Source of the DNA: a virus
Strand: one strand, 5' to 3'
DNA: 64,000 nucleotides
IMG/VR virus record: IMGVR_UViG_3300012582_000005
Location: 224,573-288,572 of that record
The position numbers were made by a program, and so were the translations under genes. Every line of letters starts with the position of its first letter. The stretch's first letter is position 1. Positions 17,394 to 35,209 of this stretch are shown here, piece after piece. Under the pieces are notes generated by a model, which saw only the letters and a program-made list of their open reading frames with translations, had not been told where the DNA came from and searched no databases.

Positions 17394-17468
17394 GGCGTGT
17401 TCGTCTAGAGGCTTAGGACGGTTAGCTTTTCAGCTTTCAAACGTGTGGTTCGAATCCCGCACACGCTA
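17394..17468 (+). tRNA. tRNA-Glu(TTC)-like, weak anticodon stem
   Basis: Acceptor GGCGTGT / ACACGCT, D-arm GTCT...GGAC and T-loop TTCGAAT are clear. The anticodon arm reads AGC-TTTTCA-GCT: only three good pairs and a six-base loop holding TTC. The tRNA at 17664 has the same six-base loop on a perfect stem. The body (TCGTCTAGAGGC) is Glu-like. Could be a decayed or unusual tRNA-Glu. Confidence 0.65.
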
Positions 17469-17663: not shown

Positions 17664-17738
17664 GGCCCGTTCGTCTAGAGGCTTAGGACGACTACCTTTT
17701 CAGGTAGAAAACGTTAGGTTCGAATCCTGCACGGGCTA
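17664..17738 (+). tRNA. tRNA-Glu(TTC)-like with a six-base anticodon loop
   Basis: Acceptor GGCCCGT / ACGGGCT, D-arm GTCT...GGAC and T-loop TTCGAAT are present. The anticodon stem CTACC / GGTAG is perfect but closes a loop of only six bases, TTTTCA. TTC is the likely anticodon. The body is a paralogue of the tRNA at 17394. Confidence 0.72.
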
Positions 17739-17743
17739 CTATT

Positions 17744-18187: not shown

Positions 18188-18254
18188 AAAATAATTCCTA
18201 AAAGAAAGAACAAAAGAAAGATATATACGTTATAATATTTAAATAACTAAGACA

Positions 18255-18350
18255 ATGACAACAATTATCAGAAATATGAATAATAATATTAATCGCACGA
18301 GAACAACTCTTGGGCTTTCTGATAAAGTATTGTCTTTTATGAAAAGATAA
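18255..18350 (+). CDS. Thr-codon leader peptide, 31 aa (attenuator A)
   Basis: The ORF starts MTTIIRN and contains NRTRTTLGLSDK, so five of its 31 codons are Thr (ACA, ACA, ACG, ACA, ACT at codons 2, 3, 15, 17, 18). Control-type codons lie just before CTTGGGCTTTCT, which can pair with the 5' arm of the following terminator. tRNA-Thr and the ThrRS gene come next. It has the design of a ribosome-dependent leader peptide. The ATG overlaps AAGACAA (18249-18255), complementary to TTGTCTT (18330-18336) near the ORF end; leader B has the same pair. Mechanism is inferred. Confidence 0.6.
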   Translation: MTTIIRNMNNNINRTRTTLGLSDKVLSFMKR

Positions 18351-18404
18351 TTAATTAAAAAACTTTATAATAGAAAGCCCGAAGCGATAAACTTCGGGTT
18401 TTTT
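18312..18404 (+). promoter_or_regulatory. Attenuator A: antiterminator/terminator pair before tRNA-Thr-thrS
   Basis: The terminator is CCCGAAG (18378-18384), loop CGATAAA, CTTCGGG (18392-18398) and a T6 tract. GGGCTTTCT (18312-18320), inside the leader ORF, is a perfect 9-base complement of AGAAAGCCC (18372-18380). The two pairings are mutually exclusive because they share CCC. A ribosome stalled on Thr codons 17-18 would partly cover 18312-18320, so the exact switching logic is not settled. Confidence 0.6.
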
Positions 18405-18413
18405 GTTTTATAT

Positions 18414-18484
18414 GCCTTTTTAGTTCAGTGGTAGAACACATCTTTGGTATGGATGTAACACGGATCCGATTTCCGTAGAAGGCT
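18414..18484 (+). tRNA. tRNA-Thr(GGT)
   Basis: Acceptor GCCTTTT / AGAAGGC, D-arm GTTC...GAAC, anticodon arm CATCT-TTGGTAT-GGATG with anticodon GGT, T-arm ACGGA-TCCGATT-TCCGT. It lies between the Thr-codon attenuator and the ThrRS gene, whose ATG is one base after the discriminator. Confidence 0.88.
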
Positions 18485-18485
18485 C

Positions 18486-19652: not shown

Positions 19653-19739
19653 GGGAGGGTTGCTTTAGAGACCGAAAAGTCCAGACTGTTAATCTGGTGA
19701 ATTAATATTCCATCGTGGGTTTGAATCCCACCCCTCCCT
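19653..19739 (+). tRNA. tRNA-Asn(GTT) with long variable arm
   Basis: Acceptor GGGAGGG / CCCTCCC, anticodon arm CCAGA-CTGTTAA-TCTGG (GTT) and T-arm GTGGG-TTTGAAT-CCCAC are perfect. The variable region is 17 bases with a GAAT-TAAT-ATTC hairpin, a class II feature not normal for tRNA-Asn. The D-arm is also atypical. The body recalls tRNA-Tyr, so its charging identity is open. Confidence 0.75.
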
Positions 19740-19745
19740 CAAAAT

Positions 19746-19832
19746 GCCTGTATCGCATAGATGGCCGATTGCACCTGATTTGTAACCAGGATGGTGATAA
19801 ACCACACGGGAGTTCGAATCTCTCTACAGGCT
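19746..19832 (+). tRNA. tRNA-Thr(TGT) with long variable arm
   Basis: Acceptor GCCTGTA / TACAGGC is perfect; the anticodon arm CCTGA-TTTGTAA-CCAGG gives TGT with one mismatch (A31:C39). T-arm GGGAG-TTCGAAT-CTCTC. The variable region is 17 bases with a TGGT/ACCA stem, which is unusual for tRNA-Thr. It decodes ACA, which the GGT tRNA at 18414 does not. Confidence 0.75.
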
Positions 19833-19876
19833 CAAACTTTTTCTAAATATTTCATATAAATGAAAATGTTTAGAAA

Positions 19877-20410
19877 ATGAAAAGTTGTAAAAAATGTAAT
19901 AATTACTATCCTAGTAGAATAAAAATAGATGGTAAAGTAAGAAATCTTAAAAATAGATCATATTGTTTAGATTGTTCACCATTTAATAAACATAATACTA
20001 AACAGCTTGATGTTTATATTAAAAATGATGTTTGTAAAGAATGTAATAATTCTTTAACGTTAGGTAGATGTCATGCTTGTTATAATAGAAAAAGAAGACA
20101 AAAAATGTCTAAAAAAGTTTATGATATTATAGGTTATAATTGTTGGATGTGTGGATATACAAAAGGTGAAATATCAAGTAAAATTTTAACATTTCATCAT
20201 ATAAATCCACAAGATAAAAAAATGAATTTAACTATTGATAATATGGCGAGATATGAGTGGTGTGTTGTATGGAATGAAATTAAAAAGTGTGTATCATTAT
20301 GTCCTACTTGCCATCAAGAATATCATTATACTAATTTAGTTACTGATGAAGATATTGAAAGGATTAAAAATGAAAATTGGAATAGAATACATGATGAAAT
20401 AAAATTGTAA
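19877..20410 (+). CDS. HNH endonuclease, likely homing type
   Basis: The 177-residue protein has an HNH/zinc core: Cys89 and Cys92 (CWMCG), the catalytic FHHINP (H107, H108), and the second zinc pair C142/C145 in LCPTCHQEYH. N-terminal CxxC knuckles (CKKC, CLDC, CKEC, CHAC) suggest extra zinc-finger DNA-binding units. It sits inside the tRNA array, a common place for freestanding homing endonucleases. Its stop codon lies within the acceptor stem of the next tRNA. Confidence 0.88.
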   Translation: MKSCKKCNNYYPSRIKIDGKVRNLKNRSYCLDCSPFNKHNTKQLDVYIKNDVCKECNNSLTLGRCHACYNRKRRQKMSKKVYDIIGYNCWMCGYTKGEISSKILTFHHINPQDKKMNLTIDNMARYEWCVVWNEIKKCVSLCPTCHQEYHYTNLVTDEDIERIKNENWNRIHDEIKL

Positions 20411-20548
20411 GGTGATGAAAAGGTAGACATATCTCCCTGTCTCGGAGATGGTGATAATGGGATAAACGCAGAATATTTGGATTGACCACAATTAATTATC
20501 TGTTCTGTAGCTAACTACACCGTGTTGGTTCGAATCCAACTCTTACAG
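20406..20548 (+). tRNA. tRNA-Asp(GTC)-like with a very long variable-region insertion
   Basis: Acceptor TGTAAGG (20406-20412) / TCTTACA (20541-20547), D-stem ATG/CAT, anticodon arm TCTCC-CTGTCTC-GGAGA (GTC) and T-arm GTTGG-TTCGAAT-CCAAC are all present. Between anticodon stem and T-arm lie about 75 bases in place of 4-5. They contain GGTG/CACC, CAGAA/TTCTG and TGTAG-CTAA-CTACA pairings. It could be an expanded variable arm, an intron-like insertion or a fusion of two tRNAs. The 5' end overlaps the HNH stop. Confidence 0.55.
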
Positions 20549-20594
20549 CATGGATTCTTAGATAAGATTGATGATATATTAAATGATTAAAAAT

Positions 20595-20667
20595 ACCTTC
20601 TTCGTCTAACGGATTAAGACTTCTGAATACGAATCAGAGAATAGGGGTTCGATTCCCTTAGAAGGTT
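20595..20667 (+). tRNA. tRNA-Arg(ACG)
   Basis: Acceptor ACCTTCT / AGAAGGT, D-arm GTCT...AGAC, anticodon arm TCTGA-ATACGAA-TCAGA (ACG) and T-arm AGGGG-TTCGATT-CCCTT. A regular cloverleaf reading CGN codons (after wobble modification). Confidence 0.85.
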
Positions 20668-20731
20668 CAAAAAGTAAAATAATAAAACAATATATAAGTT
20701 ATATCGTTTAAAGAATAAGACAAATAATATT

Positions 20732-20791
20732 ATGAAAACTATAGCAATGATTATTAGAATGAGAATTATTAGACCAAAAATGCTTGGGTGA
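20732..20791 (+). CDS. AGA-codon leader peptide, 19 aa (attenuator B)
   Basis: The ORF encodes MKTIAMIIRMRIIRPKMLG and stops at TGA. All three Arg codons (9, 11, 14) are AGA, the codon of the tRNA-Arg(TCT) encoded directly after the terminator; ArgRS follows further on. The final CTT GGG codons form the strand that competes with the terminator, as in leader A. After the stop the DNA still matches leader A (TGATAGAATATTGTCTTTT against TGATAAAGTATTGTCTTTT), so the two elements share ancestry. The flanking AAGACAA (20717-20723) / TTGTCTT (20799-20805) pair is conserved. AGA is also common in this genome, so leader function is inference. Confidence 0.5.
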   Translation: MKTIAMIIRMRIIRPKMLG

Positions 20792-20849
20792 TAGAATATT
20801 GTCTTTTAAAAAGAAATTCGAACCCAAGCAAATAAAGCTTGGGTTTTTT
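20782..20849 (+). promoter_or_regulatory. Attenuator B: antiterminator/terminator pair before tRNA-Arg
   Basis: The terminator is CCCAAGC (20823-20829), loop AAATAAA, GCTTGGG (20837-20843) and a T6 tract. An identical GCTTGGG (20782-20788) in the leader ORF can pair with the same CCCAAGC and so prevent the terminator. The layout matches attenuator A at 18312-18404. Confidence 0.55.
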
Positions 20850-20857
20850 GTTTATAT

Positions 20858-20930
20858 GCCCGATTGGTGTAATTGAATAGCACAATCTCCTTCTAAGTGA
20901 TTAGTCCAAGTTTGAATCTTGGATTGGGTA
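20858..20930 (+). tRNA. tRNA-Arg(TCT)
   Basis: Acceptor GCCCGAT / ATTGGGT (two wobble pairs), D-arm GTGT...GCAC, anticodon arm ATCTC-CTTCTAA-GTGAT (TCT, one mismatch). It reads AGA, the main Arg codon of this AT-rich genome, and follows attenuator B. Confidence 0.82.
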
Positions 20931-20938
20931 CATGAGTA

Positions 20939-21115
20939 ATGAAAAAAAATATAGTGGAAAGATTAAAAAGAATATTTACACATTTAGAGATAGTAATAGA
21001 AGAACATTATTTTAATGATGATGATTATGCTCCACCGATTAATGTTGATTGGTATTATGTAATTGAAGAATTAAAAAAGAATGGATTGGAAATAAGAAAT
21101 AGTAAAAATAAATAG
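20939..21115 (+). CDS. Small protein between tRNAs, 58 aa
   Basis: The ORF begins MKKNIVERLKRIF and has an acidic, aromatic C-terminal half (NDDDYAPPINVDWYYVIEEL). It starts 8 bases after tRNA-Arg(TCT), and its TAG stop lies inside the acceptor stem of tRNA-Ile. An alternative ATG at 20932 opens a short frame that stops early. No family recognised, but the composition looks coding. Confidence 0.6.
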   Translation: MKKNIVERLKRIFTHLEIVIEEHYFNDDDYAPPINVDWYYVIEELKKNGLEIRNSKNK

Positions 21116-21185
21116 TCTCGTAATTCAGTGGTAGAATGCTTCTCTGATAAGGAAGATGTCGTGTGTTCAATTCACACCGAGACTA
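21114..21185 (+). tRNA. tRNA-Ile(GAT)
   Basis: Acceptor AGTCTCG / CGAGACT, D-arm ATTC...GAAT, anticodon arm CTTCT-CTGATAA-GGAAG (GAT), T-arm GTGTG-TTCAATT-CACAC. The first two bases overlap the stop of the 58-aa ORF. Confidence 0.87.
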
Positions 21186-21190
21186 CTAAT

Positions 21191-21264
21191 AGCAATATAG
21201 TGTAATTGGCTAACACGCTGCTCTCATAAGGCAGAGATTATTGGTTCAAGTCCAATTATTGCTA
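21191..21264 (+). tRNA. tRNA-Met(CAT), elongator type (or Ile2)
   Basis: Acceptor AGCAATA / TATTGCT is fully paired, unlike the initiator at 17471. D-arm GTGT...ACAC, anticodon arm CTGCT-CTCATAA-GGCAG, T-arm ATTGG-TTCAAGT-CCAAT. A CAT anticodon modified to lysidine would make it tRNA-Ile2 for AUA; the sequence cannot decide. Confidence 0.82.
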
Positions 21265-21279
21265 CAGAAGAAATAGATT

Positions 21280-22461
21280 ATGAAAATTAGCATAAATGAT
21301 ATTAATATAATTCCTAAACAGTTCGGAAGCGGATTATGTGTTTACGGAAAACCAAAACATGAAATACAGGAGTGGATAAATTTTTGGGGATTTAAAACCG
21401 AAGAAAGCAAAGGTTTTACAAATATTTGCCTACCTTCTAATTTAGAAGATTTTTTTATTTCCACTCCGTATTTTAAATATTTAGATGGCTACAGCCCAAA
21501 TTTAAATAAATATTGCCATATTGGACATCTCTCGAATCTTGTTATAGCTAAAGCTATTCAAAACTTTGGGTATGCTGAACAAACTATCGCTATACTTGGT
21601 GATACGTTAGATGGTAAAGTGGAGAAGCAAGATGCATTCGATAAATATTTATCATATTGTAAAGAATTTAATTATAATGTAGGTGATATTTATTATGCAT
21701 CAAATCAAGAGTTAGATAATAAAGAATTATTACATGATGGTGAAGGTGATTATATTGGAACTAAAATATTTAATGTAGGTGAGAATAAAATAGTTGGAAT
21801 TAAATCAACAGGTGCTACAACATATTTTTATCAAGATGTTGCATTAGCATCTAAATTAAATGCTCCGACTATTTACATTACAGGATTAGAACAAGCACCA
21901 CACTTTTCTATACTTAAAGAAATATTTCCTGACATAAAGCATATCGGTTTGGGATTAGTACTTGCTAAAAGTAAAGATTCATTTGGTAAAATGAGTTCAA
22001 GTCTTGGTAATGTTATATGGATGCAAGATGTTATTGATATGCTTATGAAAGAATTTAATAACTTAGAATTAGTTTATAATGTTATTGCTGGTCAATTTTT
22101 GAAGTATGCACCTGGTTCGGATAAGAAGATTGATTTAGATCAATTTGCTAATGTGAAAACAAGTTATGGTTTATATGTTAGTTATACTTTAGCTAAATTA
22201 AAAAGTGCTGGTATGAAAGTGGAATTGAAAGATGATTTTAATAGTTTCCATATGAAGTTTAAATTTTTAAAAGCGAAAGATAATTTTTCACCTGCTATAT
22301 TTTTTGATGAATTGATTGATTCGTGTAAAACTATTAATCAGATGTATTTGAAATTTCATATCAAGGATAATCCTGAGAACCAAGAGATGTATAAACCATT
22401 AATGGAGGATTTAGAATTAGGTTTGAAGAAATTAGGAATGTTTTCTATTGATAAGGTTTAA
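21280..22461 (+). CDS. argS: Arginyl-tRNA synthetase, short form
   Basis: Class I synthetase with the ArgRS signature YSPNLNKYCHIGHL (HIGH at 80-83), the ArgRS-specific GATTYFYQDVALA (178-190) and a KMSKS variant GKMSSSLGNVI (236-246). At 393 residues it lacks the N-terminal Add1 domain that binds the tRNA elbow, and has a reduced DALR-like anticodon domain; host enzymes are about 560-600 residues. Loss of the elbow-binding domain may relax tRNA recognition and suit the phage's own tRNA-Arg species. It ends the tRNA cluster, with attenuator B, tRNA-Arg(TCT), tRNA-Ile and tRNA-Met upstream. Confidence 0.92.
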   Translation: MKISINDINIIPKQFGSGLCVYGKPKHEIQEWINFWGFKTEESKGFTNICLPSNLEDFFISTPYFKYLDGYSPNLNKYCHIGHLSNLVIAKAIQNFGYAEQTIAILGDTLDGKVEKQDAFDKYLSYCKEFNYNVGDIYYASNQELDNKELLHDGEGDYIGTKIFNVGENKIVGIKSTGATTYFYQDVALASKLNAPTIYITGLEQAPHFSILKEIFPDIKHIGLGLVLAKSKDSFGKMSSSLGNVIWMQDVIDMLMKEFNNLELVYNVIAGQFLKYAPGSDKKIDLDQFANVKTSYGLYVSYTLAKLKSAGMKVELKDDFNSFHMKFKFLKAKDNFSPAIFFDELIDSCKTINQMYLKFHIKDNPENQEMYKPLMEDLELGLKKLGMFSIDKV

Positions 22462-33271: not shown

Positions 33272-35209
33272 ATGTCAATACTAAAAGACTACAAAAATCG
33301 TCACTTACATGTACCAAAAGAATTTTCATTGCTAGAATATTTGGACTTGTGTAAGAAATCAGACAAATGGTATTCGCTTCCTGCTGAGAGGTTATTGGAA
33401 GCAATAGGTAGTGAAGAAACTATAGATACCAAAGATGATCCTAGATTATCTAGATTATTCTTCAATAAAATTATCAAAAGATATCCAGCTTTTAGAGAAT
33501 TTTATGGTATGGAAGATACTATAGAACAAATTGTTGGTTTCTTTAGACATGCTTCACAAGGCCTGGAAGAAAAGAAACAAGTTCTATATCTTTTGGGTCC
33601 AGTTGGTGGTGGTAAATCTTCTTTAGCTGAGAAAATAAAAAGCTTGATGGAAAAATGTCCTATTTATGTGGTTAAAGTTGGTGAAGAAACATCACCTGTA
33701 TTTGAATCACCATTTGGTATTTTCTCATCAGATGAAGATTCTAAAATGTTATTGGATGAATACGGAATTAATAAAAGATATATTCCATCTTGTATGTCTC
33801 CGTGGCTTACTAAAAGATTAGATGAAATTGATTATGATTTATCTAAAATAAAAGTAATTGAAATGTATCCAAGTATTCAACATCAAGTTGGAATAGCAAA
33901 AGTAGAACCAGGTGATGAAAACAATTCTGATATATCATCTCTTGTTGGTAAAGTAGATATTAGAAAACTTGCACATTTCAGTCAAGATGATCCTGATTGC
34001 TATTCATATTCTGGCGGCTTGTGTAGAGCAAACCAAGGAATCTTAGAGTTTGTTGAGATGTTTAAAGCTCCAATTAAAACGTTACATCCATTATTAACTG
34101 CAACACAAGAAGGAAATTTTAAAGGAACTGAAGGGCTACCCGCAATTCCATACCAGGGTATTATCATGGCCCATTCGAATGAGTCAGAATGGGAGCTCTT
34201 TGTAAGAGATAAGAAGAATGAAGCTTTCTTAGATCGTATTAACGTAGTAAGAGTACCATATTGTTCACGTGTTGATGAAGAAGTAAAAATTTACGAAAAG
34301 ATTTTGGCACACTCATCATTATCAAAAGCGTCTTGCGCACCAAAGACACTTGATTTACTTGCTAAGTTTATTATCATGACTCGTTTGGTTGAGCCTGAGA
34401 ATTCGAATATTTTTTCTAAGCTTAGAGTATATAATGGTGAGAATTTAAAAGATAAAGATCCAAAAGCAAAATCATTACAAGAATATAAAGATTATGCAGG
34501 TTTGAATGAAGGTATGAATGGTTTATCAACACGTTTTGCTTATAAAGTTCTATCTAAAGTATTTAATTATGATCAACATGAAATTTCTGCTAACCCAATT
34601 CATTTATTTTATGTGTTGGAAAAAGAAGTGCAAAAATTACAATTAGCAAAAGAAGTAGAAGGTAAATATTTAGATTATCTAAAAACACATATTGTTTCTG
34701 ATTACGTTCAATATATTGGTAATGAAATTCAAAGAGCTTATGTTGAATCTTATTCTGATTATGGTCAAAATCTATTTGAAAGATATGTTGCTTATGCTGA
34801 TAATTGGATTCAAGATAATGATTTTAGAGATCCTGAAACTAATGCTATGATGAATAGAGAAACTCTTAATTCGGAATTAGAGAAAATGGAGAAACCAGCA
34901 GGTATTGTAAATCCTAAAGATTTCAGACATGAAACTGTTAATTTTACATACAGATATAGAGCAAATAATAGTGGTAAATCTCCAAAATGGAATGCTTTTG
35001 AAAAAATAAGAACTGTTATAGAAAAGAGAATTTTCACTAATACAGAAGATTTGCTACCTGTTATTTCTTTCTCACCTAAAAATAGCACTGATGATAAGAA
35101 GAAACACGAAAGCTTCATATCAAGAATGGAAAACTTGGGATATACTAAGAGACAGATTCAATTAATAGTTGAATGGTATGTAAGAGTTTATAAACATGAT
35201 TTGAGTTAA
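33272..35209 (+). CDS. prkA: PrkA/YeaG serine protein kinase
   Basis: The 645-residue protein matches PrkA/YeaG over its length. An AAA-type N-terminal half has Walker A LGPVGGGKSSLAEK (108-121) and the conserved GLCRANQGILEFVEMFKAP and IMAHSNESEW segments; the C-terminal part is kinase-like. In bacteria prkA is linked with yeaH and spoVR/ycgB in starvation and sporulation responses, and all three occur here between 33.3 and 41.7 kb. A terminator follows, so prkA may be transcribed apart from the other two. Confidence 0.94.
   Translation: MSILKDYKNRHLHVPKEFSLLEYLDLCKKSDKWYSLPAERLLEAIGSEETIDTKDDPRLSRLFFNKIIKRYPAFREFYGMEDTIEQIVGFFRHASQGLEEKKQVLYLLGPVGGGKSSLAEKIKSLMEKCPIYVVKVGEETSPVFESPFGIFSSDEDSKMLLDEYGINKRYIPSCMSPWLTKRLDEIDYDLSKIKVIEMYPSIQHQVGIAKVEPGDENNSDISSLVGKVDIRKLAHFSQDDPDCYSYSGGLCRANQGILEFVEMFKAPIKTLHPLLTATQEGNFKGTEGLPAIPYQGIIMAHSNESEWELFVRDKKNEAFLDRINVVRVPYCSRVDEEVKIYEKILAHSSLSKASCAPKTLDLLAKFIIMTRLVEPENSNIFSKLRVYNGENLKDKDPKAKSLQEYKDYAGLNEGMNGLSTRFAYKVLSKVFNYDQHEISANPIHLFYVLEKEVQKLQLAKEVEGKYLDYLKTHIVSDYVQYIGNEIQRAYVESYSDYGQNLFERYVAYADNWIQDNDFRDPETNAMMNRETLNSELEKMEKPAGIVNPKDFRHETVNFTYRYRANNSGKSPKWNAFEKIRTVIEKRIFTNTEDLLPVISFSPKNSTDDKKKHESFISRMENLGYTKRQIQLIVEWYVRVYKHDLS

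Follow-up and report, generated by a model that had tools for sequence, protein, structure and literature searches.

Polyvalent leader ORFs precede phage tRNA and synthetase genes

Our analyses indicate that the cassettes preceding tRNA and aminoacyl-tRNA synthetase (aaRS) genes in a huge phage are, with high probability, polyvalent, ribosome-mediated transcription attenuators, in which a short leader ORF lists the amino acids of the tRNAs encoded downstream. The anatomy, cognate composition, alternative pairing and position dependence of these cassettes are seen in silico in many phages. The DNA that we analyzed (the window, 64,000 nucleotides) is 100% identical over the 5.3 kb searched to LR756504.1, a phage genome of 636,363 bp whose relatives are LR745206.1 (634,780 bp) and LR756502.1 (642,428 bp); each of the three was read from end to end. 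Al-Shayeb et al. 2020 (PMC7162821), in whose text neither "attenuat" nor "terminator" occurs, list complete genomes of huge phages with sizes of 634, 636, 642 and 735 kb.

The original prediction was that a 19-codon ORF with three AGA codons and a CTT GGG end forms an attenuator upstream of tRNA-Arg(TCT), and the ORF, the terminator and the tRNA were all found in this order (Table 1). The ORF, which ends in CTT GGG TGA and encodes MKTIAMIIRMRIIRPKMLG, also contains five Ile codons and three Met codons besides the start. Its residues are therefore cognate to all three downstream tRNAs (Arg, Ile and Met), Arg being one of three; the proposed matches of Arg with Arg and Thr with Thr are real, but that specificity was too narrow, as the leaders list the whole downstream tRNA set. 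At least three AGA codons occur in only 8 of 1754 random ORFs of 17-21 codons from the LR756504.1 genome, placing the AGA content of the leader well above that of random short ORFs, and its combined Arg, Ile and Met fraction of 0.61 (61%) was matched or exceeded by 4 of 5158 random ORFs from the same genome.

The end of the ORF can pair with the terminator, as had been proposed. Specifically, TGCTTGGGT, which overlaps the stop codon, is complementary at 9 of 9 positions to ACCCAAGCA (20822-20830), with a duplex energy of −18.6 kcal/mol, and ACCCAAGCA overlaps the 5′ arm of the terminator, AACCCAAGC, the partner of the 3′ arm GCTTGGGTT. The terminator hairpin has a predicted energy of −14.8 kcal/mol (z = −5.6). 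When folding was computed for successive ribosome positions, sequestration of the 5′ arm by the leader was 0.87-1.0 through the last AGA codon and 0.04 two codons on, which puts the predicted switch point right after the last AGA.

Table 1. Features of the Thr and Arg elements, in window coordinates
Feature	Position	Strand	Basis or remark
Promoter-like 16-mer ATATATACGTTATAAT	18221..18236	+	Common to three attenuator cassettes of LR756504.1
Thr/Asn/Arg leader ORF MTTIIRNMNNNINRTRTTLGLSDKVLSFMKR	18255..18350	+	Composition, P = 13/5158 random ORFs
Thr segment 1 TTATCAGAAA	18265..18274	+	10/10 complementary to 18316-18325
Thr antiterminator 5′ strand GGGCTTTCT	18312..18320	+	Partner AGAAAGCCC, 18372-18380
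Thr terminator CCCGAAG/CTTCGGG, T run	18378..18404	+	Sequence pairing
tRNA-Thr(GGT)	18414..18485	+
ThrRS, 386 aa	18486..19646	+	TIGR00418, 476 bits, over cutoff
tRNA-Asn(GTT)	19653..19740	+	Asn codons of Thr leader match
tRNA-Thr(TGT)	19746..19833	+
tRNA-Arg(ACG)	20595..20668	+	CGC of Thr leader matches
AAGACAA/TTGTCTT pair, Arg element	20717-20723/20799-20805
Arg/Ile/Met leader ORF MKTIAMIIRMRIIRPKMLG	20732..20791	+	19 codons; composition test
Arg antiterminator 5′ strand TGCTTGGGT	20781..20789	+	ORF end, stop codon overlapped
20-base block TGATAGAATATTGTCTTTTA, common to Thr element	20789..20808	+	Inside antiterminator hairpin (predicted fold)
Arg terminator 5′ arm AACCCAAGC, alternative partner the leader	20821..20829	+	Pairing and predicted fold
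Arg terminator 3′ arm GCTTGGGTT (20837-20845) and T run	20837..20850	+	Pairing; predicted fold
tRNA-Arg(TCT), decodes AGA	20858..20931	+
tRNA-Ile(GAT)	21114..21186	+
tRNA-Met(CAT)	21191..21265	+
ArgRS-like class I synthetase, 393 aa, last in unit	21280..22461	+	HIGH and KMSSS motifs

The Thr leader is likewise cognate to Thr, Asn and Arg, which are the amino acids of tRNA-Thr, -Asn, -Thr and -Arg(ACG), the tRNAs encoded up to the next attenuator. Pairing of segment 1 TTATCAGAAA with 18316-18325 is a possible protective stem. One feature of this leader counts against the attenuator model: a ribosome at the last two Thr codons would cover the antiterminator strand. The Rfam Thr_leader family (RF00506), which shares Thr codons and a terminator with this element, scored below its gathering threshold in the window (28.6 versus 55 bits), and the match spans only the stretch 3′ of the leader ORF; an Rfam search of the window gave no covariance-model match to a T-box. 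The thrS matches in other phage records consisted of two bacterial-like contigs and phage Phosso, in which inspection by eye revealed no Thr leader.

The original prediction placed argS last in the unit. An ORF does end there, at 22461, and it contains the class I motifs CHIGH and GKMSSS, both kept in a homologue. The product is 51% identical to an LR745206.1 protein. Its match to the TIGR00456 argS equivalog model falls below the cutoff (30.5 versus 261.65 bits; E = 1.2e-7), its match to PF00750 is weak, and a PDB search gave no match. We therefore refer to the product as ArgRS-like only. A viral_contigs homology search with the ArgRS and ThrRS as queries found no relatives.

Shared blocks point to duplication and re-specification

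It had also been suggested that one regulatory cassette was duplicated and re-specified, and shared sequence blocks back this for LR756504.1. A stretch claimed as common to both elements, TGATANANTATTGTCTTTTA, has exactly two copies in the window, one in the Thr and one in the Arg element, against a chance expectation of 0.08. In addition, the two elements share the 20-base block TGATAGAATATTGTCTTTTA, and the exact 16-mer ATATATACGTTATAAT lies upstream of three cassettes and is absent elsewhere in the genome. These common promoter-like and spacer blocks support duplication followed by re-specification. The AAGACAA/TTGTCTT pair, which was to be a defining part of the element, is present and has its sole sites in the genome in the Thr and Arg cassettes; as a defining helix it was rejected, since its genome count equals that of the reversed control (2 versus 2). 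Because the pair does not exceed this control and is confined to two cassettes, any function of it is putative, and the role proposed for it is unsupported. The predicted folds place TTGTCTTTT within the antiterminator hairpin instead.

Cassettes re-specified for other tRNAs in related and unrelated phages

We found that nearly every tRNA cluster of LR756504.1 and its two ∼635-642-kb relatives has its own cassette, including cassettes before other synthetases and tRNAs with their codons changed accordingly. We scanned for terminators with a 5′ arm complementary to a segment further upstream as well, making no use of tRNA positions. Six loci were returned in LR756504.1, all directly upstream of tRNA genes; LR745206.1 also had six, of which five lie upstream of tRNA or synthetase genes. 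Further cassettes were found by reading upstream of tRNA clusters. The leaders and their arrays include FWHFHF (His,Phe), LSLCLSLSLSL (Leu,Leu,Ser,Cys,Ser,Ser,Leu,Leu), QDKQYQPQYD (Asp,Tyr,Tyr,Gln), KKKK (Lys), IAIVEIAVIGGAEEGV (Glu,Ala,Ile,Val,Gly), SKSSSRSSS (Arg,Ser), PVNPQPQDQDP (Pro,Asp,Gln) and QQIQQQQ (Gln), together with NNRNR upstream of AsnRS-ArgRS and a leader with two adjacent Asp codons upstream of AspRS; the HisRS leader, with a single His, is a weak case. Among homologous His/Phe/Lys leaders, the arms (GTTCGG, GATTCGA, AACTTGG, GTTCGGTT and TTCGGGGTT) each fit their own terminator, such that the arm sequences change and the antiterminator complementarity is kept. Across cassettes, the arms and leaders are too diverged for a covariance model. 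At 377730 of LR756502.1, a leader (MKTLHTYKNVIDWM) and its attenuator are kept and the next gene encodes a small basic protein. This leader resembles the HisRS leader of LR745206.1, and HisRS is not nearby, which counts against the model.

The same logic extends well beyond the Arg and Thr cassettes of this phage, the two that the original prediction covered. In a 595-kb phage with only distant similarity, MHTFSASLRLSSYSLSSLLYSN, with a GTG start, lies upstream of a Ser/Leu/Tyr cluster; another leader there, which contains almost all amino acids but Leu, precedes a cluster of more than 40 other tRNAs. This phage (LR756511.1) also encodes, at 179588, a tRNA called as Pyl with a CTA anticodon; possibly it recodes TAG, which would extend the two TAG-ending leaders there. 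A pattern scan of IMG/VR for terminators just 5′ of tRNA genes, in which leader content was not used, yielded many cassettes of the same logic in unrelated phage contigs, for example LQLQQVQGQQLQQLLAGL before Leu,Leu,Gln,Gln and ILVLCLCVLVLA before Cys,Val,Val,Val,Leu,Leu. One of these contigs is the cultured Cellulophaga phage phi38:1. Cellulophaga phage phi4:1 carries IQRLHLQELEQP before Pro,Glu,Gln,His,Leu,Leu,Arg, the counterpart of which in Maribacter phage Panino is QRLHQELEQP, and YCTYNNSNWSFSY before Tyr,Ser,Asn,Trp,Phe. In the 735-kb phage LR756503.1, SKHSKHFSSSSKWF precedes Trp,His,His,Phe,Lys,Ser. The Lak phage cluster at 120-140 kb lacks the terminator-leader cassette. A contig binned as cellular, in a Mollicutes MAG, has the Cys-array leader MQTVNNILCLGSLLVLLVGISGCVVM; it may be a prophage or phage contig.

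Leader composition and pairing are matched to the downstream array

For statistics, leaders were picked by length and position only, and similar leaders were removed, leaving 58 non-redundant cassettes. The fraction of leader residues cognate to their own array was 0.414, compared to 0.254 after permutation (z = 13.7, which, like the other z-values across cassettes, overstates the number of independent events, given the distant kinship that remains among leaders). The 595-kb phage, the 635-kb family and the Cellulophaga phages nevertheless have different leaders, arrays and genomes. The match was also seen in another, independently drawn pattern sample (z = 3.8, n = 13). Codons readable by the anticodons of the own array made up 0.362 of the total versus 0.200 permuted (permuted maximum 0.235); the codon-box preference was clear for Arg and Ile and weak for Leu and Ser. 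Leaders also paired more strongly with the 5′ arm of their own terminator, at −10.4 versus −7.1 kcal/mol permuted (z = −13.6). In a few sampled cassettes the leader-array match was absent.

A point against the model is that folding of the complete RNA often favors the terminator at equilibrium, so that antitermination must be kinetic in many cassettes. Because antitermination is such a kinetic choice, the equilibrium fold of the full leader was replaced by folding of the RNA up to the terminator loop, that is, before the 3′ arm is made. A ribosome placed on cognate codons gave a predicted 5′-arm sequestration of 0.65; for one at the stop codon the value was 0.16. Dinucleotide-shuffled controls gave 0.44 and 0.29, and the real difference was larger than in all 20 shuffle rounds. 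We defined the switch point, from folding alone, as the most 3′ codon on which ribosome stalling leaves sequestration possible. In this folding model cognate enrichment is confined to the codons 5′ of the switch point: the cognate fraction was 0.522 before it (0.263 ± 0.018 expected) and 0.278 after it (0.246 ± 0.027 expected).

Mechanism and alternative explanations

The cassettes thus combine a short ORF rich in cognate codons, a predicted U-run terminator between the leader and the first gene, an antiterminator that excludes the terminator, a fold set in silico by ribosome position, and regulatory codons that correspond to what the operon does. We infer that the leaders are translated, that ribosomes stall on them and that transcription terminates in vivo, with depletion of host tRNAs or amino acids as the physiological signal. 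In the proposed mechanism, RNA polymerase would start upstream and transcribe the leader ORF, whose codons correspond to the downstream tRNAs and synthetases. Were the charged tRNA for any listed codon in short supply, the ribosome would stall short of the ORF end, leaving this end available for pairing with the terminator's 5′ arm; the terminator would then not form and the tRNA/aaRS operon would be transcribed. Fast reading of all listed codons would bring the ribosome to the stop codon, where it would cover the ORF end, so that the terminator forms and transcription ends. Such a leader would work as an OR gate with several tRNAs as inputs, and the tRNAs and synthetases made would provide negative feedback. 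The likely function is transcription of tRNA and synthetase genes once any cognate charged tRNA is short; triggers may include amino-acid shortage, host tRNA decay, codon demand and tRNA-cleaving defence.

The match to the own array, the pairing with the own arm and the location of the switch are predictions of attenuation and hard to obtain otherwise. A reading in which each hairpin simply terminates an upstream gene and each short ORF is a chance frame is very improbable, contradicted by the permutation tests of composition, own-arm pairing and switch position. Such a reading can draw on the sampled cassettes with no leader-array match and on cellular genomes, which too have terminators 5′ of tRNA genes; among 116 cellular stretches searched with the same pattern, there were 12 terminators before tRNAs, and only 2 had such an ORF.

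Somewhat less improbable, though still unlikely, is a post-transcriptional role of the leaders in mRNA stability, processing or Rho access, with stalled ribosomes protecting or exposing the tRNA precursor. Transcription-translation coupling is, to our knowledge, not well established in Bacteroidetes-type hosts, and this doubt favors such a role, but the T runs after the hairpins and the specific pairing of leaders with the 5′ arm of the terminator argue for transcription attenuation. A leader peptide working in trans, for instance as a micro-protein binding ribosomes or tRNAs, would have precedent in peTrpL and similar leader peptides with trans functions (PMC7298713). Here, however, the peptides change in sequence along with the tRNA array, the RNA switch being retained, and cognate enrichment ends at the RNA switch point, making a function of the peptide itself highly unlikely. 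Attenuation by a leader ORF with cognate codons, as first proposed for the Arg element, is strongly supported by the AGA content and by the cassettes of related phages.

Relation to known attenuators and implications

Like trpL, hisL, thrL and ilvL, the phage cassettes have a short ORF with cognate codons, an antiterminator competing with an intrinsic terminator, and ribosome position as the sensor. Those attenuators govern biosynthesis operons, whereas the phage cassettes control tRNA genes and synthetases. Their leaders can name about ten or more amino acids, compared with three in ilvL and two in thrL, and form no recognizable sequence family. In E. coli, the aminoacyl-tRNA synthetase operon pheST is controlled by leader-peptide attenuation (pheM), but that system is cellular, senses one amino acid and contains no tRNA genes. 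T-box riboswitches also control aaRS genes by tRNA charging; they differ in binding tRNA directly, with no translated leader. A search of open PMC full texts, a collection outside which preprints and most subscription papers lie, found attenuators of biosynthetic operons and no attenuator of phage tRNA or synthetase genes. The mechanism is of a classical class. What appears new is that viruses use it, on tRNA arrays and through polyvalent leaders, in what seems to be a widespread and undescribed viral control system.

What tRNA genes do for phages, and when they come into use, is an open question. Our data suggest that many phages may express tRNAs on demand rather than constitutively, sensing several aminoacyl-tRNAs at once. 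Since each leader spells out the tRNAs that its phage handles as limiting, function can be deduced from sequence. We propose tentatively, and with slightly more doubt than belief, a general viral class in which leaders are coded inventories of phage tRNA arrays that sense decoding loss and respond by activating replacement tRNAs and synthetases; host defences that cleave tRNAs are a plausible target of this inducible response. Because Cellulophaga phages phi38:1 and phi4:1 and Maribacter phage Panino are cultured carriers, the idea is directly testable, including host anticodon nucleases as the inducer.

Additional features of the window

An HNH endonuclease-like ORF, under the Pfam cutoff, is located within the tRNA operon at 19877-20410. 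Its end is overlapped by a tRNA-like element (20405-20553) with matching acceptor and T arms and a long interruption, called by neither ARAGORN nor Rfam. Two tRNA-Glu-like genes (17394-17468 and 17664-17739) have an apparent 8-base anticodon loop (CTTTTCAG); ARAGORN skips one and leaves the other unassigned, and no leader cassette was found upstream of them. Finally, 33272-35209 encodes a phage PrkA-type serine protein kinase with 65-67% identity in huge-phage relatives.
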